Of a stretch of DNA of 64,000 nucleotides, positions 47,060-62,181 are shown piece after piece; positions within the stretch are counted from its first letter, which is position 1; every line of letters begins with the position of its first letter. The notes beneath the pieces are model-generated. The model was not told where the DNA came from. It did no database searches and saw only the letters and a program-made list of their open reading frames with translations. The DNA is from Buxus sempervirens (lineage: Eukaryota > Streptophyta > Magnoliopsida > Buxales > Buxaceae), in NCBI GenBank assembly GCA_947561395.2, contig OX387190.1:33226858-33290857 (forward strand), given 5' to 3'. Made by a program: the position numbers and the translations under genes.

Positions 47060-50000
47060 ACAACTATGCACGATTTCTCAAAAAACCTTTATTATTTATT
47101 ATAAAGTTCAAAACCTTTATTATTCATTATAAAGTTCTCATTAATATATTGTTAAAATAGCCAGAACTCATTTTAATTGAAAGCATTTCCTTTAGAGCCA
47201 AAATTCGGTGGTTCTATGAAACCACCAACTGGGATGGAGTTTGGATGTGTGGGGCCTCCTCCTGACATGGCATCTATCCGTGCGTTTCATGCTGGCACCA
47301 CTGTATGGCACTAGATAAAACGCTTTCATTTTACATGAATTGGTCGGTAACATTTTTGGTCTTAAGAATACTTTTGTCCAATATTAATTCCACATCAACT
47401 CGGAATATAAAAAATTTCCCAACAAATGCCTTGTAAAATGAGGCATTCGTCTTAACAAATCAGGCAAGAAAATAACAATAAATTTTTTTTTTTAGATTAT
47501 TAATATGAATTTAGATCACACATTCATAGGAGCATATTCAAATTTGATAATAATTGAATTCAAATTTAAAGATCCAATCCGTCGAACAAATATTTTCAAT
47601 CGCCTTTCTAAATTTTAATCAAAATCAAGATAAAAGTTCAACCCATTAAGAGTCCTAAAATCAATCAAACCTAAAAAACCATTCTACTAAGATTGTTTGG
47701 TTTTGAACCCAAACCTAAAAGCCAGTTGGTGGGCTTGTGAACGCAAACCTAGTTGGGACTCATGTTGTTAAGTCTGGATTGGTTTTGGGCTGAACAAAGT
47801 AAAATTTTGTCTTTTTTTTTTTTTTCACACTGATGGAATTTGAGGAAAAAAATTTATCAAACAATAAGCTACCATTTGAATTGCTATGATAACTAAATTT
47901 AATAACTTTACTTCAAATTTCGTTTAAAACATCATAAATTTTAGAAAAAAAAGAAGGTTATATTGCTTGTGCGCTTTGCTCTATTATATATCAAATATTT
48001 ATCAAAATAAAAAAGTGTGTAATAACAATTGATACTAGGCTTGTAAAGAGGGTTGCTCACGCAAGATTGAATTCAATTTTGGTTGAAATTTGCCACGAAG
48101 GAAAGAAAAATCTTAAAAGAATAAAGCAAATCATTATTGAAAAAAGGAAAAAGGCAAGAAAGGAAAAAAATTTAAAAGAAGAAAGCTAACTCATTATTCA
48201 AAAAGGAAAAGGAAAGAAAACATTATTTGCTATAAATGAAAATAACTCTAACCAGATATTTGGGTTCAAAGCACTTAAATTCTAACCAGCATTAAATAAT
48301 ACTAGTGTATGCACATGTATAATGTAGGCACATAAAATTTTTGAGCAATTATTTAAAGGATATGATAGTCTTTTACAATTTTTAATAGACATTAAAAAAA
48401 AAAAGAAGAGCACAATGGGTTTTTAGGGGATATTAAAGTTTAAAATCCATAGAATATAATGAGAGATTAAATGTTAGATAAAAACCCTTTATAATAGTAA
48501 TAAAATAAAATGGTTAGGATTTAGAGTCTTAAAAACCCATAATAGTCTTTAACCTATTCAGATTGATTTAATTTAAAATCTGATAAGTGCTTTTCCAATA
48601 ATACATTACCATTCACACCAAAAAAACAAAAAGAAAGTAAACCAAGGTAGCGAGGCGAGTTAAACTGGTAGCTTGCCCTGCTCCACCCCTAATGGTTGAG
48701 GTTTGGTCTGGGCAAAGTCAGATTAAGAGCAGGTACAGGTTTAGCCAACTCGCAAACTTCAACCTTAATTTATGAAAATATTATTTTTATATGTCAAAAA
48801 GAAAATTTTTTTTCGTATGTATAAAATAAAAAAAATATTTTATTAATAAATATATTATTAGTTTATATATATTCTATTTTAAAAACACCATTTTCATTCC
48901 TCAATATAATCGGGATAAACCTGACCTGAACGATCACCCCGTTGCCATTCCCACAGTGGCACAGGCCTTCAATGATTTTTCGGCAATTTTTGAGAATAAA
49001 TGTTGAAAGTATATAGCAACTATCAGCTGGTCACAGGAATAATCCAACACAAATTCCTTTGTTCATCCGTGGACCGTGGGCACACTGCCACAGAAAATCA
49101 AAATTTAGGTGCTGAGGGAAGAAGATTCAAGTCATGGTTGTATTCCTAGAGTTTGGGAGCCATCACTTGATGATTCCTACCTAAGAAGCCAGCCAGGTCA
49201 AAAACTATATAATTAAGAAAACGAGCGAATGGACAACTGCCCAGCTTTTGTTCTGGTTACCACCTACGTAGGATCAATGCAGTGGTAATGATCCTCTGTA
49301 TGGTGCACCGCAGGTGGACAGTCCTATTCAACCAAATGATTTATAGGCTTCTGTTGTTTATGCCTTTTCAATAAAATGGTAGATTTCCTTTTCTTGTAGG
49401 CTTATTCTAAGCAACTCCATCAAACTAAGAACTTACATAGATGATGAACAGGAGATCATAATATTAGCACACCACAGCTCAGCAATACCACCCTTATAAG
49501 TAGAGAGACGTTGGGAGAGATAATGAAGTTAACAAATATGGGAGTTTAACAAAAGAGGAAACTCCAGCAATGCAGAGTCTAACAGAGGTGGAAACTCCAG
49601 CAATACAATCCAAAAATATCGGTACAAGATTAAACAAATCAACAGCAAACCAATTCTTGCTAATGTATAAAAAGTCTCTTCTAGTTTAGGTGCATTAGAA
49701 ACAAACCAATCAAGGATATGAAGAGTATATTAACCTGCTCATTTTATGGCATTCTGTTGGCTGTCTTTGTAATTAAATGTGTTGTGTATTGCCTTGTACT
49801 CACGTTCTCAAGGAAATAGAAAAATATACAGCATCCTTTTTTGTCTTTTTTTTTTTTTTCATATTCTCCTCTCATAACAAACCTGTCATAGTGCCTGGCA
49901 CCTGCATATCCTTTCAAGTCCTCACCATTGGAGTCGAATCTAAAAATAAGGGATCTTTGAATATATAATCCTACTCGCTTTGATGACCATAAATCTGCAA

Positions 50001-50332
50001 ATTGATGTCAAATTGAATGTTTAAAACAGAGGAACATAATTAAAAGGTTTTTTCATCATTATTCTCTTTGGTGTTGGTAAACTGAGATTGGGTCAACATC
50101 CTCATATTTGTACTTGGAATACCAACCTAGTGAAATATGAGCTCAAGCCCTTAGTCAATTAGTTCCTTGATGGGAACAACCAGGACTTGAACAAACCCAG
50201 AATTAAAATGAGGCTACAAGTTAGTTCCCTGATGCCATTACATTTGCGTTTGCAACATTGTAGAGCTGATGCACAGAGCAAAATGTGTGACACAAGTATG
50301 AATAAGGGAATATGCATATAAGAAAATCTTAC
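47060..50332. other. Intergenic, degenerate repeats
   Basis: No gene was recognised. At 47075-47135 a 28-bp unit (AAAACCTTTATTATT..AAAGTTC) is tandemly duplicated inside a partial copy of the dispersed repeat also found at 16906. Low-complexity A-rich DNA near 48100-48200 and a GTTGCCATTCCCAC end near 48940 suggest further decayed TIR elements whose partners I could not place. Confidence 0.5.
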
Positions 50333-50594
50333 AATTTGGGGTTTTAGATCACTCCTTTTTGTAATTAAGCTCATGGCTTGTCCAGGGTAGGCTCCAGCCA
50401 AAGCCTCTCCTAAAACTTTGACAATCTGTTCTTGCACCATGGAAGCAAATCATGAGTAAGTCCCTGGAGCAGAACAAAATGATCAGGTGACTTACCTCTG
50501 TATAAATTTCTGAGGTGTCACCCAATATGGGGTTGCTTGTGTGAATCACAAAAGCGTAATCAGAATTGCTTACTTCTTGAACCAAGAGAGCCAT
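50333..50594 (-). pseudogene. Two-exon fragment of alpha-glucan water dikinase (GWD)
   Basis: Two short exons keep consensus splice sites. Exon 50496-50594 encodes 33 residues (MALLVQEVSNSDYAFVIHTS.., ..GDTSEIYTE). Exon 50333-50425 encodes 31 residues (IVKVLGEALAGAYPGQAMSL, ITKRSDLKPQI). Both are exact multiples of three and match adjacent segments of the PEP-synthase-like nucleotide-binding domain of GWD, the plastid enzyme that phosphorylates starch glucans (family pattern DYAFVIHT..EIYAEVVKGLGETLVGAYPG). The neighbouring conserved segments (GYPSKPIGLF.., FRSDSNGEDLEGYAGAGL) are absent on either side, so this is an isolated piece of a gene of over 1400 residues. It cannot make a working enzyme but could be spliced into a chimeric transcript. 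Confidence 0.8.
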
Positions 50595-51249
50595 CTGAAG
50601 GTTGGCTGATCTATTATGCTGGAGAAATTACTACAATTTATTTCTTTTCTGCCCTAAAATAGGAAAATTGGTTTTGGCATGGTTTATATAAGTGCAATCA
50701 TAATTGAAACATGACAACATGCTTTTGCATAAAAAAATCACCAGTTTTTAATAAAGTATTTTGTTTCTAACAATATTGTAAATATAAATTGCCAAAGCCA
50801 CTGATAGAGAAGAGCAGAAGGCAATCAAAATGGACATTATTATCAAGCGGCAGAGACTTTAGGTTGATATTCCAAGGGATTTAGGAAACTTCCTTAATCT
50901 AGAACTCTAGATTATGGACTTCAAGAGAAATGCATATCATTTTCTAATTCAAATGGCATGTAATAAAGAGGCATATCAGATTCAGAAATGAGACTCTTAA
51001 CACCTGATTAGCTCGGGCTCCACTGTATAAACATTACTGTCAAAAATGGTTTGGATGGTAACCAATAAAAATGAATATATACATCAAATTACATTATTTT
51101 ATGTCATTGAACGAGTGAGCACACAAGCAAAAGAGTTACTGAGGAAGATTCTGTATCGTTTTCTATTTCTAATTAAAAAAATTCTCAATACAGAAATAGG
51201 GATGTCACTTGGTATGTGGTAAAAAACTTGGGCTGCTGCATGAACATGC

Positions 51250-51936
51250 AGCTTCTCGTCCAAGTTTGACCACTTTACACAAATTTGCTGAAGGTGAGGT
51301 GCAGCAGATATAAGTCATGTCCAAATAAATTTGCAGTCTACATTGCATTAGGTGTGGAAATGTAAGCTGGACATCAGCAAAGAAGCCCTCTTTATTTGAT
51401 TTTGAACTTGAAGCCTGGAAAATCAAGCTTCCAAATTAGATTCAAAAAGAAAAAAAGATGAATTCAAAATTGAAACTCCCAGCTATACTTACTAGTTTTG
51501 GGAGAAGCAATGCTGTTGCCTGGGAATATGTCTTATGAAATGAAGGCTTGTCTACCTCTCCACATTTCTCAGCATTGTTAACGAATTGTTGAAGTGGCCT
51601 TACAAACTTTGCAAGAAGAATCTCATTAAAAAATTCATTTTCAGGCTGTGGTTCTTGAGATAATCCAGATCTCAGCCCCTGAAGACCAAGACCAAAACCA
51701 AAGCCCGTTGGGTTAGTGCCAGACTGAATACCAACAATGCTGTTATACAACCTTCCTGTGTCAGAAATTCCCTCAACATGGTTGCATTTCAATGTTGCAC
51801 TGACTACATCAGTGCTGAGCATCTCTAAGTTGAATGATTTTGTCAAATTAGGTTTTTCTCCTGAAGCTGCAGGTACAGCAGCTACAACTGCAGGAACATT
51901 TGTAGTTTGTATGCCCATCCAACAATCATTTATTTC
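51250..51936 (-). pseudogene. Decayed fragment of phosphatidylinositol 4-kinase alpha
   Basis: The upstream piece (51493 to about 51936) runs CWMGIQTTNVPAVVAAVP.. to KPSFHKTYSQATALLLPKL and ends at a GTAAGT donor. The next piece starts after a CAG at 51414 with ASSSKSNKEGF. It then matches the plant PI4K-alpha motif LLCWCPAYISTPDAM as C-stop-CPAYISTPNAM in a shifted frame, and further on IWTWLVSAAPQLG as IWT-stop-LISAAPHLQ. Two Trp codons have become stop codons and at least one frameshift is present. PI4K-alpha is a plasma-membrane lipid kinase of about 2000 residues. Only an internal non-catalytic stretch is present here, so it is a pseudogene fragment. The identification rests on family sequence memory. 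Confidence 0.7.
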
Positions 51937-54900
51937 CAGTACTGACCCACATCTCAGACATAAGAGAAATCATATCAGTTGTATGCTGTGCTCTCTGCCA
52001 TGTGTTTGACTCACAAAAAATCAAAATATACATGTATACCATGTAGATACTTGAAGGCATATGATTAAAATGAAATCAACAAATAGAAGTTCTGTAATTG
52101 AAAAAAAAAATACCAAACAGACTTCTAAAGCATCAAAATTCAAGAAATTTTTGGATTGGTGATTCCAGCATACCAAAGCATCAAAATTCACAACTACTTA
52201 CTGAGTCATGGTGTGGGCAATGAATATCTATACAGTTGCTCCTCGGCAATGATAAAGGAAATCATGAAGCTAACACAAATTGCAGACAATAAAGATGATT
52301 AATAAATGAAACATGCATAAAGTTGAACTCTGTTCTCTATTCACACACACTCAAAATCTTCAGTTATTGAAAGGAAAAAATAAAAGCCAAACATCCTTCA
52401 AGTAAACATAACAATTGAAGACCATCATTTTTCTCATTAAACTGCCTGCACTTTGATGAAAAACCATAATGGAAATATCAGACATACCATGTCAGATGCA
52501 AAAAAAATTCATCCAGAGGTAAGAGATGACAATAATATGAGGTATCGACAAATAATTAGAGCTTGTTATATAATTTTTTGCATGGTACTGCTTCACAAAT
52601 GATCACAATACAATGAATATGCTAGGAGCTCAGACTAGAGAAAACACACACCCACACACAAAAAAAAAACCACCTCACACAAACTTACAGCAGCGCTACT
52701 GTGAATTCTGCAGGCATACTTATAGAAGACTGTGGCTGGTGCATAGAGCATATGAAAGAGCACTCGTAACTCATTCTCGGGCTATCCGTTGATATAATGA
52801 ATGAATTGTAGCCACCCAGGTAGGATCATTGACGTACGTAAAAGGCATATCATTATTAATTGAACAGAACAGTGAATCCAGACAAGCGGAATTCCACAAT
52901 ACGTGCATGCATTTTCATACACATTTTCAAGTGTAACAGCCAGAACATCCCAATAAATAATGCATTATAGAAAATAATATTATTGAACATAGTTTAACCT
53001 TAGGAACCATGCTCTTGACTTGTATCAACAAGTTAACTGAGATATCCCGAATGGATTCCTCCCACAGGGGCATACACAATATTTAATGGAAAAAAAACAC
53101 AAATACAGAAAAAAACAATATTTTTTAAGATTTTAATTGCACAGAAAATAGTTTAAAAGAAATAAAAATCCTAAGAAAAAGATAAATAAGAATAGAAAGA
53201 TTCATACAATTTTAAGCATGAAAGAATTAGTACAACTATTAAAAACAAATAAATATAAAATTATCAATTCCATAAGAACAAATAAATAGTGAAAATATAG
53301 AAATATTAAATCTACGGAACTACGGTTCAAATAATAGCTTCCACCACGGGAGAAAAAGTCAAGGGGATAACATTAAAATTGTCTGAAGAAATATCAATAA
53401 ACATAAAAGATTAGAGAAATGGCAAATTAAAATTGAATCACAAAAGATATAAGGAAAAAAAAAAATGTCTGGTGGGAACTGCAGCAAAAGTAAAATACCC
53501 TAATGACAGAAAATTGGAGTAAAAAGAGAAATTACATATGACAAGTAAGAATAATGGAACATACTAAAATGAATTTAAAAAGTAAATGTGAATTAAGTAT
53601 TTCAAAAGAAAGCTAAATTATAGTAAATGAGGAAGAGTAAACACTATTCAAAAACATGTAAAAAATTAATAACAATACAAAATAGAAATAAATATCAAGA
53701 AATTCAACAAATGAAATCAAATTAAATACAAACCTGAAAAGTGAAAATATGAAAACAAATAAAAAATAGTTTTAAATAAACGGTGGTTCATTGTTAAAAA
53801 AATTGATGGTTTTTCAAATAATTCAAAAATTAGGCGTACTTTCAAAAAATATTTAAAAACAAATGGTAGTTCACTGTTATATTTTTTTCTTGGACTGAAT
53901 TACCCCTTAAAAGTCTATTTCCTAACTAGGTGTGTGCCCTATGATGATGTGGTATGTACTACCCTATTGTGACATGGTGGATACCCTATCATAATATAGT
54001 GTGTTCCTTGCAATATTGTGGTGTGTGGCCTATGATACTATGGTGTGTGACCTATGATGATTCAATTCAATGTGTGTCTATGACAAATATGCAATTTAGC
54101 TAAGATAAAAATTATAACAATAAACCACAACTTGTTTAAAAATATTTTTTTAGAAGTATTGTTGTTTTTTAATTATTTAAAAAAAATCACTTAAAATCTC
54201 TATGCATTTGATAAATTGTGACCAAACTCTAATTTTGCATTTAAATAGTCGCACAAAAAGTTTCCAAATGCCTTCAATAAAATTAAAGAATAGGAAGATG
54301 AGCCTGCACATTGTTTGCAACGCAGATCCCATTTACAGCATGTATAACAAGAGACATTGATGTAGGGCCACCAAAGTGAATATTCTGTGGGCCCGACATC
54401 ACTGTGTCTTATTGTACATGCTGTAAAGTGAATTTGCGTTGCAAACGATTATTAATCAAAAGATGAGAAATTCATTAATACTTAAAAGTAAGCAAAAAAT
54501 GGTTAAATTATAAAATACAAATAAATATCTACAATTAATTTAATGAAAATAAAAAAATCAAAGAAACATAAAGATCAAACAATTAAAAAAAGAAGAAGCT
54601 AAAAGTATATATTAAGATAAAGTAACAAAAACAACAAAAAAAGCAACAAAAAAAAAAAAGAAATTAAAATGGCAAAGGCACACGACAAAGTATATCTAAA
54701 TTGAAAGGACAAAGGCATGAAAAATCAAAATTGACAAAAATGCTCAATTAAATGAGAAAAAAATAAAAATAAAACATACAATTACTGGGATCAACTTTGA
54801 ACAAAATGCTTAAAGAAAGAAAACCTAGAGGAAGAAAGTAATAAGAATCAAATTAAATGAAAAATAAAACTAAATCAACCTAAAGCATAAAATTAAATCA

Positions 54901-55017
54901 GAGTAAAAATTTTAGCAAAATGAACTTAAAAAATGTAAATAAAAATTCAAAAAAAAAAAAACTTCATAATAGAAGTTGTAGTAGTAATAATAATAATAGC
55001 AAAGAAACAAAGCTAGA
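51937..55017. other. Intergenic, A-rich and repetitive
   Basis: No gene was recognised. From about 53090 to 55010 the plus strand is strikingly A-rich. A degenerate tandem tract built on GTGTGNCCTATGATNATNTGGT lies at about 53928-54060. A hairpin MITE lies at 54303-54458. The eIF3d fragment begins at the right border. Confidence 0.5.
54303..54458. mobile_element. Hairpin MITE, probably Mutator-like
   Basis: GTTTGCAACGCA..TTTACAGCATGTA on the left pairs with TACATGCTGTAAA..TGCGTTGCAAAC on the right, around GGGCC..GGGCCC. GAAGATGAG (54294-54302) and AAAGATGAG (54459-54467) form a likely 9-bp target duplication with one mismatch. The layout resembles the MITEs at 213 and 42164, but the sequence differs. 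Confidence 0.65.
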
Positions 55018-55493
55018 GGCTTAAGTTCAATGGGTCTTTCCCAAAAACATATCTTCCTTCGTTTAATTTCATGCATGAGTCAACAATTGACTCCACGACG
55101 CCCCACTTATTTGAAGTGTTTAGATTGATCGATGTAGCAAATTCTCTCGGTTTATAAATCGCTAAAGCCAAGATGACATTGGTAAAATGATCCTAAGGAT
55201 GAACCCTAGAAACATATCCCAACTTTATCACATCTGCTCTTGCTAACAATGCTTGAGCAGCCCATTTTGCCAATTCTTTCGTATTTTTCTCAATTCAGTA
55301 GCCAAGACTGCACCTCTTTGCATCTCCAACTTCTGACTCCAATCAACACACAAATACTTTGGATCAAACTCATTAAGCACATTCACAGTCATAAATGATC
55401 TCAGCCCTTTCAACTTAGAAATACTTCGAACCTCACACTTGGCACCTAGATAAATCTTGTTATCAAGCTTACACCGATAATACCACTACGAAA
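55018..55493 (-). pseudogene. eIF3d C-terminal fragment, frameshifted
   Basis: Minus-strand translation gives YRCKLDNKIYLGAKCEVRSI, then VLNEFDPKYLCVDWSQKLEM and QRGAVLATEL. A frameshift follows, then AKWAAQALLARADVIKLGYV, DHFTNVILALAIYKPREFAT and SINLNTSNKWGVVESIVDSC, ending MKLNEGRYVFGKDP. This follows plant eIF3d (FDPKYSGVDWRQKLETQRGA, ..LGYVSRVHPRDHFNHVILA.., KPREFATQINLNTSNMWGIV), the mRNA cap-binding subunit of the eIF3 complex. At least one frameshift and an in-frame stop (after RVHP) break it. Its 5' side stops exactly where a CACTA-like end begins (55494). The N-terminal part of an eIF3d gene occurs 5 kb upstream at 60545-60900; the middle is missing. Confidence 0.8.
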
Positions 55494-55720
55494 AATTACA
55501 CTTTCTACTGGCATTCTCTCCAAACATTGTTAAAATTTAGCGTCTCAAATAGCATTAAAGGTGCTTTATCCAATGTTTTTTGGCTGCTGCTGTTTCAATA
55601 TTTATTGACGGTTTTTGGATTTTTGTTACAGGCGATTATTTCGTAGAGACACTATTTACCGGCGGTTTTAATACTTCTTGGTATTCCCCCCCAAAAAAAA
55701 TATTTGCATCCTCGTGAATG
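55494..55720 (+). mobile_element. Possible CACTA (En/Spm) terminus
   Basis: It begins CACTACGAAAAATTACAC, close to the CACTACAAGAAA-type end of plant CACTA elements. Sub-terminal motifs GACGGTTTTTGG and GGCGGTTTTA follow within 200 bp, as is typical of such ends. It abuts the broken eIF3d fragment. I did not find the opposite GTAGTG end with a matching 3-bp duplication, so it may be truncated. Confidence 0.5.
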
Positions 55721-58700
55721 TTTCACTGCCCACACACCCTGCTTGACTACCCTTGCTCGTCTCTACTCTCACTCACTAGAAAAAAAACCATGACTTACAT
55801 CAAAATTACTACAAAGTCCATCCCTAAAACATTAAAATCTAAATCGTGTATTCCTGTAACCGTCCTTAAGCCAACACACTTTCAACTTTTGCTACCACTT
55901 GATTTCTCTCAGCTGATAAGAAAAGCTAACTCCTTCAAAATAGAGAAACCCACCTCTAGAAGAGATCCCTCTTCAAAAAAATCTCCAACCATACTAGCTC
56001 TTCACCAAAAGATTTTCTTGGACCGTCATAAACAATGTGTTTGTTATATTACTTAAAAAGACTTCGACGCATAAAAATTCAGCCTAATCACTTATTGTTG
56101 TGATTCTTGTATTACTTAAAAAGACTTCAGTATACTAAAATTCAGCCTAATCACTTATCCTGCAAACTTTAGTAGGGTTCAAAGAACACAAACTGCTTTA
56201 TATAGCATAAAAAATATTTGGGATGCCCACTAACAAAACTACCATTTATTAGACCCTGCATTGACTGATTGTTATTGTGATTCTTAAGTTACAGCTTTTA
56301 TCAGAAATTTATACGATTACAGTGCTTAATTTTATCTCACATAGTGAGACTTTTGCCCATCTCAAGGCCCCGCATTCACCTGCTAACCCAACTCACTACA
56401 TAATCTAATGGAAGTCATGACAGAGCTAGATATGAAACACATGCTAAACTTCTAGAAATCATAAAACTAAAGGAGCAATTAAAGCAGAAAAGGTCCAATG
56501 AAGGAATTCAAAAACCAGTTCTATCATGTTAACTGAAAAAGAGAAAACATTGAATTAAAATATAAAAAAAATTACAAATGTTATGGGTAGTCATAGTGGT
56601 CAGAAAAAAATAACTAGTGGTCTCATTCAATTTATAGGTCCAAAATTTGGTAGTGCAGGAACTATGTTACTTACTGTTATCAACATCTCTAAAACCAAGT
56701 GCAGAATGAGGAAGGCATAAAGGTGGATTCTCTTTGTAATAACCTGACATGCACTTCCTAGTCTGCACAAATGTTTACCAACATATACTGTCCATCAGAT
56801 TCAAAATCGCCTAACACCCCTAAGACATGATCAATTCCCAACCAATTGACTTCCCTCACAACCATCCAGAATGAGGAAGGCATAAAGGTGGATTCTCTTT
56901 GTAATAACCTGACATGCACTTCCTAGTCTGCACAAATGTTTACCAACATGTACTGTCCATCAGATTCAAAATCGCTTAACACCCTTAAGACATGATCAGT
57001 TCCCAACCAATTGACTTCCCTCACAACCATCCAGAATGTTTAAGCAGTAGATATAACTCAAAGAAGCATGAATATTGGATAGACAAAAGACGTATCAAAA
57101 TCTACTTTGGCTTCGACGCTGGCGTTGATTCTTCTTCACCTTTTACGAAGGTAATTGGCCAGAAAATGCACGTATCAGTGTGGTAGATTCAAACATTGAT
57201 AGAAATACATAAACATATATATATATACATAAACATATATATATATATATATAGAAATCGGAGAAAGTTTTAACTCCACTGACATCTTTCCTGACCCTGG
57301 TCTAACAAGACCTAGGTTAAGATGCAGATTCAAGTCAACAAAACAACCAGAAGGAATCTACAGAGCATATACAATAGAGTGATACTCCAAGGCCCATTAG
57401 CTAGTCTGAAGAACTTGGCCATATTAAGAAGAAAAAAGGAACAGCACAAAGTTTCCTTGCATTAGGTTATAGCCATGAAACACATGAACATCATCAACAG
57501 AGCAAAAGACACTAAATCTGTATATATAGGGTCCGAATGGATAATAATTACATGTAATTTTTAATAGAACTACTACTTGGATTGCCCTGGCCTTACATTT
57601 GTTCCTCATTTTATTGAATGAATGCATAGTAATCACAAATACAATCTTTTTTTAGTTTTTTAAACAGATTTATATCAATTTCCATGCTGTGAAAATATGC
57701 AACAAAGTAATGAACCCCTAACAGGTCGTTTGGATGGGTATTTGTAGACGTCTCAATTTGGAATGGATGTAGAACTGAGTGCGTAGCTCTTAAGGTAGGG
57801 CTGCAAATACAGCAGGTAGAGCTCAGTTTCAATCAGTTCAGACTAATTGATCCAAACTAAAATCAGTTGCCTAAAGCAAGTCTTGTGTGAACTAAAATAG
57901 AAAATAATTAATGAGCCCAACCCAACTCAAAATCAATTTCAGGCTGAGTTCAGGATAACCTAAATCTAACGCATTTTTCATGAAAAGATTGATATTAAAT
58001 TAAAAAATAAATAAATTTTGTAAAAACAACCCAATAATTGAGTTAATTTTCTATTGACAGTAAATTTAAACTATATTTGGGTTGAAAGATAGAGGTGAGT
58101 GGGAAAGAAAAGGGTGATACCATTTCCATGTAATGAGTACCATATCCAAAATATGTATAAGTAACTTAAAAAAAACCAACCAAATAACTCAACTAAACTT
58201 AACATAAGGATATAAACCAATCACTTGCAGAGGCATGGCCTAGACTTTATGGATCCCATATCTTTAAAAAGATTAAAATTGAAATTAAAATATCCAAAAT
58301 TAGAAAAACAAGAAAAGGAAAAAAAAAACATAAAAAATAACTACAAGCTTTTATACCACACAAAAAAAAAAAGAAAGATTTAAAAGAAACACAACACAAA
58401 AAGGAAAGGGAGGAGAGAGGGGTTGGGGTGGGGTGTGGAGAGGAGAGGACTGATTCATGATTCATGTGACAACTATAAGAAACAAGCAAAAGCCATCACT
58501 TAGAAAATATTATACAATCTCACTGTAGATAAACAAGAGCCTAGCCGGAACAATATACTGAAACTATATATGAAGTGACCTCACTTACCCGTCGGATCTC
58601 TCTCCCTTTCTAATGTTAATGCTCACTTTTCTTCCACTTAGCCATTTGGTGCAGAAACAAAAATACAAGTAGATTAGGATGGAAGAATTAAAAATGTAAA

Positions 58701-58977
58701 GAATCAGTGACCCAATAAATGAGACTAGATTTGTGCTTAAAAGCTTGACAACACATTTTAGATATATAGAGGCCATCAATCAAGTGCCTGATCTATCCAT
58801 AACAGAGCCAGTAACTACAAGTTTCCTAGTTCACCAAACTCATATAATGAGTGAACAAACATTTGTGCACTTGCTTTTTAGTGCATAATTGCGTATATGT
58901 TTCAGAATGCAAATTTACATACAAACATATGCTCAAGAACAGGAAAAACTACCTTCAGATAAATATTTACACATTAC
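55721..58977. other. Intergenic between gene fragments
   Basis: Apart from the 165-bp tandem duplication at 56702-57031 and short (TA)n runs near 57215-57252, I see no recognisable gene. The plus frame at 55718-56056 (112 codons, Ser/Lys/Thr-rich) has no known domain. A TAGGGCTGCAAAT string at about 57797 resembles the head of a TIR element, but I could not place its partner. Confidence 0.5.
56702..57031. repeat. 165-bp tandem duplication
   Basis: Copy 56702-56866 and copy 56867-57031 both start CAGAATGAGGAAGGC and differ at only about four positions. A partial third start (CCAGAATG) follows at 57031. Confidence 0.93.
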
Positions 58978-59110
58978 CTGTAAATCCTTCACTTTCTCTT
59001 CTTTCTGTTCAGGTTTGGCTTCAGTCATAACACTATCAATTCCAAATTCCTTGGCAATGGAATTTGCAGTGTCCTTATTGTCACTGAATCCATCTATTCT
59101 TCTATACCTA
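58978..59110 (-). pseudogene. Single-exon fragment of a copper P1B-ATPase (HMA5/RAN1-like)
   Basis: The segment reads GFSDNKDTANSIAKEFGIDS then VMTEAKPEQKEEKVKDLQ and ends at a GTAATG donor. A TTTTATAG acceptor lies just upstream. It matches the part of plant copper-transporting ATPases between the P-domain TGDN motif and the hinge (TGDNWGTANAIAKEVGI.., AEAKPEQKAEKVKELQ). The next conserved segment (VAMVGDGINDSPAL) is absent, and the TGDN signature itself is altered (the aligned residues read SDNK). Such a piece has no transport function. It is one exon-sized fragment of a roughly 980-residue membrane protein. Confidence 0.7.
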
Positions 59111-59121
59111 TAAAATAGAAA

Positions 59122-59425
59122 ACAACTGCACATTCAAAAGAGTCAAAAAATGGCTCCACGAGGAGATTAAATAAACTATTGTGAGATTAAATAAAGGGAA
59201 CTCAGTTCAGTTGGTTTCGACAGATTAAATACAGTCCACAATTACACCTGTGAAAAGTTGTATGCTGGTGTAAACAACTGCACATTTGAAAGAGTCAACA
59301 AGTGGCTCCACTAGGAGATTAAATAAACCACTAGGAGATTAACTAAAAGGGAAGTCAGTTCAGTTGGTTTTGACAGATAAATTAGAGTCCACAATTACAC
59401 CTCTGATAACGTGTATGATGGTGTA
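59122..59425. repeat. About 152-bp diverged tandem duplication
   Basis: A unit starting ACAACTGCACATT and containing GGCTCCAC, AGTTCAGTTGGTTT and TCCACAATTACACCT occurs at 59122 and again at 59274, with scattered substitutions and small indels. It lies directly upstream (on the minus strand) of the ATPase exon fragment. Confidence 0.85.
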
Positions 59426-60544
59426 ATTTGGACAATCGAATAGTTGAAGGAAAACCAAAAAGGACCCAATTTGCGTCTGGGAGAAAATTTCTAGGCACAT
59501 TATATAATTGAAGATTGGTTGGACGCATATTACTGGCCCAGTTAGTTGAGATTGGATATTATTATTGTTGTTTGTTGTGTATCTTCATACATCTCAACTT
59601 TGAGAAGATATATCAATAAACATAAATGCCAAATGCTACATACATGCTCATCAAATGTAAGAATATGAATAAACTCTCCCAAAGCTATATCTATATATAT
59701 GATAGGAAATTGGTGAAAAATGAACCTGAATGGATAGGCAATGCTGCAAGATTCATCAGAAATATAAAAATGGAATTGCATGATGTAAAATATTCAATTA
59801 ATATCTTCCATTGCAGCATTTTCAAGCATTTCAACTGTTACAAATTGAGATCAAACATGTAGTTTTCTCAAACTTTCTGTTTACAGGATGTGCAAGATTT
59901 ATCAATGATAATTCAGAACTGCCTCCAGATATGGGATATATAATAAACCTTCTTTTGGGTTATAAGGTATATTTCTAACCAGTACTTGTAAAAAAAATAA
60001 AATAGAGTCAGATGATTAGAAAATGGAGATCCCCTCCTATCTAATTTCATAACGGGGCCAGATTAAAGCATCTTTCTATGGAGCCAGAATCATATGAGGT
60101 CACAATTAAAATCATAAATATAAAATTAATTAAACAGATAATCTCATATACCAAATAAAATTTACTAAAAATACTGCGCAAAAATTAACCATGGATAATA
60201 AGACGCAGTTCAAGTCCAAAACCAAATTCGAAGTCAATTGAAAACCAAGGAATCTAAAAGGAAACACGTACACACAAACCTCAAAACCAAAAACTGCCAG
60301 ATCAACAAAGAACTACAAATTTCGAGCTAAAAGTACCATCCAGTTCAAGCAGAAAACGAGAAAAGAATCGAATCAAAGGCGTACTTGATTCTTATGATAA
60401 ATGATCCCGATTGAGGAAAATTGCAGATACTCGAAGCAAGCTTCGTATGGCCATTCTCGTGATTCACGTAGCTATAGATTTTTTAGGTAGGGTTCTAAAG
60501 TGGGTGAAAATTTCAACCATATGAAGCCAACCGACTGGAGAGAA
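59426..60544. other. No gene recognised between the ATPase and eIF3d fragments
   Basis: This DNA is AT-rich. A short minus-strand frame starting near 60455 (MAIRSLLRVSAIFLNRDHLS) looks like a presequence but stops after 20 codons and has no supported continuation. Confidence 0.45.
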
Positions 60545-60900
60545 TCAAAAGACGGCAGCCTGCCGTCGGGGCATATTGGCGCCGGAACGGTTGAGGTTAT
60601 AGAGGCGGTCACGGCGACCACACTCCTTCTCGGATTCGCGTTCCCCGGGCTTCAACCTCTTCCTCTTGGCGCTGAGAGAGTTGGCGTTGTTGCTGCAAAC
60701 GCCATTTGGGACCGAACTTAGGGCGTGGTGGAGGTTTCCAGTCGACAAGGCGGAAGGAGGAGTCGTAATCGGTTGCGAGGGCGGCGGAAGAGTCATCGAG
60801 AGCGAAATCGAAGACGGCGTCGGATGTGTTGCGGGGATTGTTGGTGCGAGAAGGTTGTTGTAGTTGCGAGTGCAGTCCGCAACAAGGCCTAGTGTTGTAC
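60545..60900 (-). pseudogene. eIF3d N-terminal fragment, frameshifted
   Basis: Successive pieces in different frames are LVADCTRNYNN, then SDAVFDFALDD, DSSFRLVDWKPPPRPKFGPK, QRQEEEVEAR and finally RRDRLYNLNRSGANMPRRQA ending AVF. These match the N-terminal region of plant eIF3d (GRIADWTRNYNN.., ..SFRLVDGKPPPRPKFGPKWR, ..DRLYNLNR). Homology starts abruptly inside the protein, skips frame at least twice, and stops after RRQAAVF, where the normal protein goes on with VDIQPEW. It is a pseudogene fragment. It has the same strand and order as the C-terminal fragment at 55018-55493, so both may derive from one copy. Confidence 0.78.
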
Positions 60901-62181
60901 ATTACACTAGAAATGGAGCAATAACCCAAACCCTAGAAACGAACAAGGTACATTACATACCAAAACACCGCTTAAAATAAAGAATCAGAGCGGGAAGAGA
61001 GTCCGTTTCCTCTGTTACGACTTACGAGCGCGAAACTAGTATTGTAATTTTAATCTTTAAATTTTAAAAATGATTTTTAAGTCAAGACAGCTGTTGGCTC
61101 GGTCCAAGATCCAACGGCTAGTTGGTGGGCGATGAGCGTCAAGGGCCGCACGTGTGATTCCAGCCGCGCCCTCCCACGCTGGCCCAGGCCGTGCCTTTCT
61201 CAAGGCCTAGCCCTAGCATGCTCCCAGCCAAACCCCAGCTCGAACCGACTGCGCAGCCGCAAAATCTCTCAAAGCCCACCAACGATCATTTGCCACAATT
61301 TATTAAGGGAAAATTATGAAAATGGTCGCTTTTTTAAAATATTTATGAAAACAGTCCACTCAGATGTTGAATTGCGAAAAAAGATCACTTTTAAAAAATA
61401 ATTGATTTGGGTCACTTCTAAAAATAGTTAAGAAAATAATATCTTTTTATTACAGATACCTGTGTTCACATGTGATGCGTTCGTAAAATGTGTTTGTGTC
61501 CATGTAAAATGCGCTCATGTCTCATGTAAAACACTTGCGTCCCATGTATAATGAGTTTGTGTCTTTAAGCAAAGTGATCTTCAAATTTAATTATTTTTGA
61601 AAAGTGATCTTCTAATTTAATTTCATGACAAAAAGTGACCCTTTTGTGTAATTTAACATCTTAATGGATGTTTTTATTAATATGTTTAAAAACTGATCCT
61701 TTTTCATAATTATCCCATTTATTAACAAGTCGTGAACAGGACTACAATCTGAATGCCTCTAATATTATAACAGGGCGACTTTTTCTAGCTGCAAGAAAAT
61801 TCTGCCCTAAAAAATATTTTATTGGTGGTAAACGTAATTCCAGCCTTTAAAAGTTAACAAAAATTTTTTTTGAGGCAAGGTTTTTACGCGTGATGTATCC
61901 TTTGCCGACAGTTGCTTCTGCCGGAATTATCACGAAATACTGGCAATATAATCTTGACACCGGCCGGTTAATAAGAGGAATTATTATATATTAATCCTCA
62001 AAATATGTCTTGCCTTAATTGAAAATAATCACGAACTCATAAATCAACAGAAAGAATATATACACTGCGTCACTGCCATAAGCGTACAAGCCTAGTGTAG
62101 AATGTAGAGTGATCACCTATACATATAACCAGGATCTCATCACCATCATAACTCATAAATATTAATCAAAGCCCCAACTAA
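60901..62181. other. Intergenic downstream of the CAD-like gene
   Basis: This includes a short GC-rich stretch at 61085-61290, the MITE at 61307-61716, and the 3' UTR of the CAD-like gene next to 62182. No gene was recognised. Confidence 0.6.
61307..61716. mobile_element. Mutator-like MITE with exact 9-bp target duplication
   Basis: The left end GGGAAAATTATGAAAATGGTC mirrors the right end GATCCTTTTTCATAATTATCCC with few mismatches. ATTTATTAA is duplicated exactly at 61298-61306 and 61717-61725. Inside are degenerate repeats of a TGTCYCATGTAAAAT-like unit (about 61480-61565). It is 410 bp and non-coding. Confidence 0.88.

Follow-up and report, generated by a model that had tools for sequence, protein, structure and literature searches.

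We analysed a 64,000-nucleotide stretch of the Buxus sempervirens genome (C12:33226858-33290857), here called the window, whose positions carry the prefix W; other places are given by sequence and megabase position, and comparisons were made against 676.5 Mb of genome. On the minus strand of the window lies a block (W48955-60922) holding pieces of four unrelated genes: eIF3d in two parts, PI4-kinase alpha (PI4K), one exon of a copper P1B-ATPase and a GWD-type dikinase. A preliminary description had named these fragments, and matches in Pfam, PDB, NCBIfam and to individual genes confirm both their identity and their common strand. The splice sites it mentioned could also be read (PI4K donor GTAAGT, PI4K acceptor TTCCAG, ATPase donor GTAATG). 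Its limits of 50333 and 60900 do enclose gene pieces, but the dikinase part begins outside them, at about W48955. A shared strand is by itself weak evidence (1 in 8 for four genes); it is a collinear second copy on C4 that argues for a non-chance origin.

Two of the genes are recognized directly in minus-strand frames with stops read as X: eIF3d by Pfam PF05091 (eIF-3_zeta, E 1.7e-32) and PI4K, in W48001-55998, by PF19274 (PI4K_N, E 8.9e-64). The N-terminal eIF3d part (W60880-60549) is 86% identical to nt 1501-1829 of L025, which carries the intact gene, and changes frame inside. Splice sites are uninformative for eIF3d because the gene is one uninterrupted frame of 567 codons (first ATG at L025 nt 1363). 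Four PI4K exon matches (W53061-52993, 52848-52723, 52018-51493 and 51385-51291) lead to the gene at C10:41.228 Mb, the sole full-length PI4K among four genome matches (8/8 candidates scored; the query was itself taken from C10), and one stretch of 133 residues is still open (121.5 bits). The ATPase pieces W59084-58919 and 58941-58847 are 86% and 81% identical to a gene at C9:46.0997 Mb. Their 43-residue peptide matches copper-transporting ATPase HMA4 in PDB (E 3.4e-4) and NCBIfam ATPase-IB_hvy (E 4e-7, far under the whole-protein cut-off, as expected at 43 residues), and returns nothing meaningful in Pfam. For the dikinase, W50594-50493 and W49957-49878 are 79% and 76% identical to a gene at C6:50.738 Mb, an exon of which matches PF01326 (PPDK_N, E 5.1e-9); the window peptide has no Pfam match and no meaningful PDB match. 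The class thus follows the C6 gene, and the name GWD is our assumption. The dikinase part ends beside a dispersed repeat at W48914.

Features in and next to the composite block (window coordinates)
Feature	Position	Strand	Basis or remark
Dispersed short repeat adjoining end of GWD part	48654..48914		
GWD-type dikinase 3' part with introns	48955..50604	-	Split by dispersed repeat 49460-49872
Non-coding sequence between PI4K and GWD	50603..51300	-	Other match only at C4:8.020 Mb (7/7 candidates scored)
PI4-kinase alpha fragment, exons and introns	51291..53075	-	Pfam and exon matches
T-rich dispersed repeat, carrier candidate	53078..55015	-	471 first-look genome candidates, 40 scored
eIF3d C-terminal pseudogene part	55026..55490	-	W55490-55026 84% identical to gene in L025
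Insert splitting the two eIF3d parts, 4.3 kb	55490..59798	-	Compared with other loci
Dispersed ~3-kb repeat family, old fragment	56031..56570	-	78-79% to five fetched copies
Copper P1B-ATPase (HMA) exon piece, donor site and part of next intron	58847..59084	-	
Non-coding piece with donor-like site	59798..60425	-	Sister-copy alignment
eIF3d N-terminal pseudogene part	60549..60922	-	BLAST 60549-60880; weak protein match up to 60922

Most of this arrangement recurs elsewhere. All ten pieces (at least 60 bits each) aligned between the window and C4:8014001-8044000 keep their order and orientation, at 73-86% identity and inside W50009-60882. The plus strand of C4:8.019-8.041 Mb reads GWD, PI4K, T-rich repeat, eIF3d C part, non-coding piece and eIF3d N part; extra sequence lies among these pieces, including a stretch that, from its open reading frames (ORFs), we take to resemble a long interspersed nuclear element (LINE). 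At C12:27310001-27320000, 10 of 11 aligned pieces have the orientation and place expected from the block, although two of these ten are overlaps to which short tandem repeats give rise; the eleventh is inverted and lies outside the block. The block part there (C12:27.312-27.318 Mb) comprises GWD and the eIF3d N part, with no T-rich match. C4:17.917-17.923 Mb aligns in 8/8 collinear pieces of eIF3d and T-rich repeat, and neither PI4K nor GWD matches there as far as 17.927 Mb. A second, presumably LINE-like sequence, lying between repeated flanks, splits the T-rich repeat of this locus. Over the 1.5-49 kb compared, the flanks of the window block, C4:8.0 and C12:27.3 share nothing except one short repeat. 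As the same order thus stands among unrelated flanks, the eIF3d/T-rich/PI4K/GWD chain was probably moved or copied as a unit, in keeping with the preliminary view that the block is no random heap. Independent insertions adjacent by chance might be suggested by the several repeat families nested here; given the ten ordered pieces of the second copy, we regard this as scarcely credible.

The loci do not all hold the same parts. Among the composite loci examined, eIF3d with the T-rich repeat is the most widely common part (the window, C4:8.0 and C4:17.9, with the eIF3d N part in C21, C22 and C11), GWD occurs in the window, C4:8.0 and C12:27.3, and PI4K within the composite in the window and C4:8.0. 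In the latter two, PI4K and GWD both lie 3' of the eIF3d/T-rich part; at C12:27.3 GWD takes that side without PI4K. Seven loci on C21, C22 and C11 match eIF3d N and the T-rich repeat and have an outer 297 bp in common; the three that were fetched all keep this order and have an antisense leucine-rich repeat (LRR) fragment alongside. At C19:0.139-0.1485 Mb the T-rich repeat accompanies the non-coding 5' piece without eIF3d, and further eIF3d-N-like places lie on C4, C10, C15, C19, C21 and C22 (best 40 of 50 candidates scored). The donor-like site of the non-coding piece reads CAG/GTACGCC in five aligned sister copies and CAA/GTACGCC in the window. A further occurrence of this piece, at C11:15.964 Mb (in L030, C11:15962667-15965983), precedes an ORF, with no eIF3d in the 3.3 kb compared; the ORF resembles a PIF/Harbinger-type Myb-like protein, which at best would make the piece part of an ORF1 leader, and Pfam gave nothing meaningful for the ORF.

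PI4K meets the T-rich repeat in mid-exon near W53070, where C4:17.9 and C19:0.14 remain T-rich. Because C4:8.0 has no counterpart to ~350 bp across this join, the join cannot be shown to be identical there. Among the composite loci examined, the ATPase insert is seen in the window and at just two further places on C12: a large part of it is shared with C12:27.315-27.317 Mb and a part with C12:39.422-39.424 Mb, and C12:39.418-39.427 Mb matches W57163-59393 alone, at a Kimura two-parameter distance (K2P) of 0.051 (main piece, 2033 sites). At C4:8.0 and C4:17.9 it is missing and the non-coding piece directly abuts eIF3d. From its absence there and its presence at two C12 loci, one at so short a distance, the insert likely arrived later than, and separately from, the rest of the block.

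From the presence and absence of parts among the loci we infer stepwise assembly of the block and two or more rounds of copying. We therefore lean towards reading it as an old, decayed composite repeat that grew step by step and spread through duplicative copying of a transposon type. In such a scheme eIF3d and the T-rich repeat would come first, followed by PI4K, then GWD and finally the ATPase insert, and the composite would have been extended mainly at its 3' side. Duplicative copying would have taken up flanking DNA beyond the 3' end, whether by read-through as in Helitrons or in some other non-autonomous DNA element, and the ends would have decayed since. Of the preliminary alternatives, a capture element or nested insertions, both keep some truth: the chain was copied as a unit and the ATPase piece looks later, whereas a single carrier finds no support. 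The statement that all fragments are internal is wrong for the family, as the GWD part of the sister copy at C12:27.31 Mb reaches a stop codon at about 27311612 (read by eye) and the eIF3d part of C4:8.0 and C4:17.9 aligns past the stop codon into the 3' untranslated region.

The edges of the composite bear on the carrier. By BLAST, homology to eIF3d starts at L025 nt 1501 in the window, 1486 at C4:8.0, 1470 at C4:17.9, 1471 at C12:27.3 and 1497 in all three fetched C21/C22/C11 copies, that is, within ~30 nt across five contexts, and the opposite (3') edge varies among copies. A fixed 5' edge with a free, growing 3' end that gains PI4K and GWD or the ATPase insert by branch would be expected if the eIF3d-start/T-rich composite were a non-autonomous family of its own, a one-ended capture element of undescribed type with neither terminal inverted repeats (TIRs) nor Helitron ends; we think this unlikely. 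The best flank-to-flank inverted matches, in the window, C4:8.0 and C12:27.3, are 12-14 bp long (E 0.036-0.76), which leaves room for degraded TIRs. W47182-47322 matches the right flank of C12:27.3 in inverted orientation, but was rejected as a block end: what matches is a short repeat that occurs twice at C12:27.3 and is weakly palindromic in the window. The sequence GGCCTTGTTGCGGA at W60889 was likewise rejected as a TIR, since the matching edge in the other copies searched lacks its first nine bases; these occur once in C12:27.3, within the eIF3d part, and the whole has no second exact 14-base match in the window. A sharp edge at C22:30533764 was not accepted as an element end either: the C21 and C11 copies share sequence past it, so that C22 may simply be broken at this point. 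Self-comparison of the window showed no pair of long terminal repeats around the block.

Helitrons insert between A and T, or between two Ts. They carry a 5' TC, a 3' CTRR and, in almost all, a GC-rich hairpin ~10-12 bp upstream, according to PMC4683698. A scan for CTRR with hairpin on both sides of the window block, C4:8.0 and C12:27.3 (six flanks; the 5' TC was not scanned) gave one candidate, at C4:8.0, and none shared among copies. True Helitron ends at the block may be lost, because in the window a later repeat directly adjoins its 3' edge and because all copies are old. That one Helitron captured every fragment and inserted here would accord with unrelated, intron-bearing gene fragments on one strand, with extension on the 3' side and with the stepwise capture reported for maize Helitrons in an excerpt of PMC3288121. 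We nevertheless think this unlikely, because no CTRR-hairpin end is common to the copies, C4:8.0 and C4:17.9 lack the ATPase insert, and the related C21/C22/C11 copies contain an antisense fragment. Common termini of a single carrier, or Helitron membership, thus do not emerge, and the doubt about such termini already voiced in the preliminary description was justified.

A transposon could also be dispensed with altogether, the block having moved as filler copied during double-strand break repair or in small segmental duplications. The failure to find a TIR or Helitron end, the differing 3' edges and the retained introns suit this idea, and a section of PMC3445842 describes such a mechanism for cereal gene movement, where stretches of gene pieces likewise come to non-collinear places. 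The block differs from those cases in that its copies appear to have a 5' edge in common and that it was copied repeatedly; the similar eIF3d start in five contexts, together with the many eIF3d/T-rich copies, suggests a repeatedly mobile unit. We hold break repair to be possible though not probable. A processed (retro) pseudogene of eIF3d was discarded, for there is no poly(A) and both copies that include the 3' end run into shared non-eIF3d sequence.

Divergence (K2P, pieces scoring 150 bits or more) ranges from 0.120 to 0.204 between the window and C12:27.3, from 0.161 to 0.236 between the window and C4:17.9 and from 0.159 to 0.233 between C4:8.0 and C4:17.9. Without CpG-type sites, 28 of 33 pieces fall at 0.076-0.151 and the other five (three eIF3d, one GWD, one T-rich) at 0.160-0.200. 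We read the copies as an old, nearly star-like set with uneven rates. For PI4K the distances are 0.132 between the window and C4, 0.153 between C4 and C10 and 0.173 between the window and C10; these values make the window and C4:8.0 fragments sisters, and if rates were alike the capture would have shortly preceded their split.

The surroundings of the copies provide a further line of evidence. To the right of the block, W62124-63992 (minus strand) holds pieces of a zinc-binding dehydrogenase-family gene or pseudogene (ADH_zinc_N below the Pfam cut-off). Other family members lie at C12:33.300 Mb and C14:9.09-9.15 Mb (best 40 of 1190 candidates); the C12/C14 relatives are 79-81% identical. To the left, W45700-45972 (minus strand) encodes a Zein-binding domain, part of a 346-codon open frame that is probably a real neighbouring gene. 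In a look for an empty site on C14, none of the 10 matches of this gene (13/13 candidates scored) fell on C14. C4:8.0 adjoins a tandem gene cluster, which we take to be DUF247-type, with a relative at C21:1.92 Mb (best 40 of 1630 candidates). Since the contexts differ (C14 versus C21 relatives), one shared duplicated segment for the window and C4:8.0 is disfavoured, on few anchors.

Several observations weigh against a stepwise-built, transposon-copied composite. The eIF3d starts agree by BLAST alone, and weak similarity continues up to ~100 nt further upstream at C4:8.0, C4:17.9 and in the window, so that the gene's own 5' end may be the real boundary; the 3' edge, as described, is not the same among copies. 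No termini, target-site duplication or transposase could be tied to the block, though no search aimed at RepHel was made. No close GWD parent was recovered, the nearest other gene being 61% identical at the protein level. Divergence between the window and C4:8.0 is uneven (0.132-0.138 for PI4K and GWD; 0.145-0.221 for the T-rich repeat, eIF3d and the 5' piece; without CpG-type sites 0.083-0.111 versus 0.094-0.200), which does not exclude separate histories of the parts, or gene conversion. Finally, C21:1.92 Mb lies 0.1-1 Mb from C21 eIF3d/T-rich copies; the eIF3d/T-rich part could therefore be old at that place on C4 and C21 rather than inserted, and the flank searches scored just 40 of 1190 and 40 of 1630 candidates.

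This proximity on C21, which could reflect old synteny, led us to give more weight to remnants of a whole-genome duplication, a gene cluster decayed in place, and less to break repair. The divergence of the copies is within the range of the dehydrogenase relatives. We still consider such remnants very unlikely: the compared flanks have one short repeat in common, the flank relatives of the window and C4:8.0 are on different chromosomes among the matches listed, copies sit at two or three C12 places, and the T-rich/PI4K join falls in mid-exon. The same join, and its occurrence within the arrangement of another locus, fit poorly with a decayed tandem of full genes, the case that the preliminary description had set against capture.

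Further observations concern the repeats and related gene pieces. The ~3-kb family is represented by five fetched copies, 80-99% identical to a reference copy; W56031-56570 is an old fragment of this family. W56702-57038 consists of two tandem copies of a 165-bp unit, 97% alike, probably a recent local duplication because it sits in an otherwise old insert. A ~430-bp dispersed repeat (W61290-61722), partly self-inverted and with over 30 relatives among the matches listed, adjoins the eIF3d end of the block. A younger sub-family with the LRR fragment antisense to eIF3d and the T-rich repeat (L051 at C21:2.361-2.3705 Mb, L052 and L053) is ~95-97% alike and occupies five C21 places within 0.5 Mb. 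At C19:0.139-0.1485 Mb (L032/L039) a 1.35-kb direct duplication, 88% identical, surrounds a long T-rich stretch, and C3:1.155-1.162 Mb, between T-rich copies, gave no Pfam gene match at E 0.01 in plus-strand frames. PI4K-like pieces, 76-84% identical to the window fragment, also lie at C4:57.003 Mb (L014/L017) and C22:2.359 Mb (L015), with no T-rich match in the 3.1-3.4 kb compared.

In the window, in-frame stops interrupt several of the PI4K and eIF3d segments and both eIF3d parts change frame. These tested segments lack the open frame of a functional gene, and the block encodes no intact protein. It looks like decayed DNA, ordinary genome litter with no sign of a product; judged from sequence, it could at most give rise to a chimeric or small RNA.

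Composites of this kind are known. As in the maize multi-fragment Helitrons covered by the excerpt of PMC3288121, the block has several gene fragments gained stepwise, but it is old, decayed and without visible CTRR or hairpin ends. Soybean CACTA element Tgm-Express1 (PMC1947982) resembles it in joining unrelated host-gene fragments (five there) with exons and introns, and differs in having inverted-repeat ends and a known insertion. Pack-MULE and other Pack-type TIR elements, as far as a section of PMC13317346 describes them, also contain captured, usually non-functional host gene fragments; around our block no TIR pair rises above chance. Units made of fragments of several genes are thus well described in plants, to judge from these extracts of PMC1947982 and PMC3288121. 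Here the copies share some parts and differ in others, which allows a testable order of capture to be put forward and makes the composite a fair case for studying the growth of gene-fragment mosaics and for asking whether they keep one end fixed.

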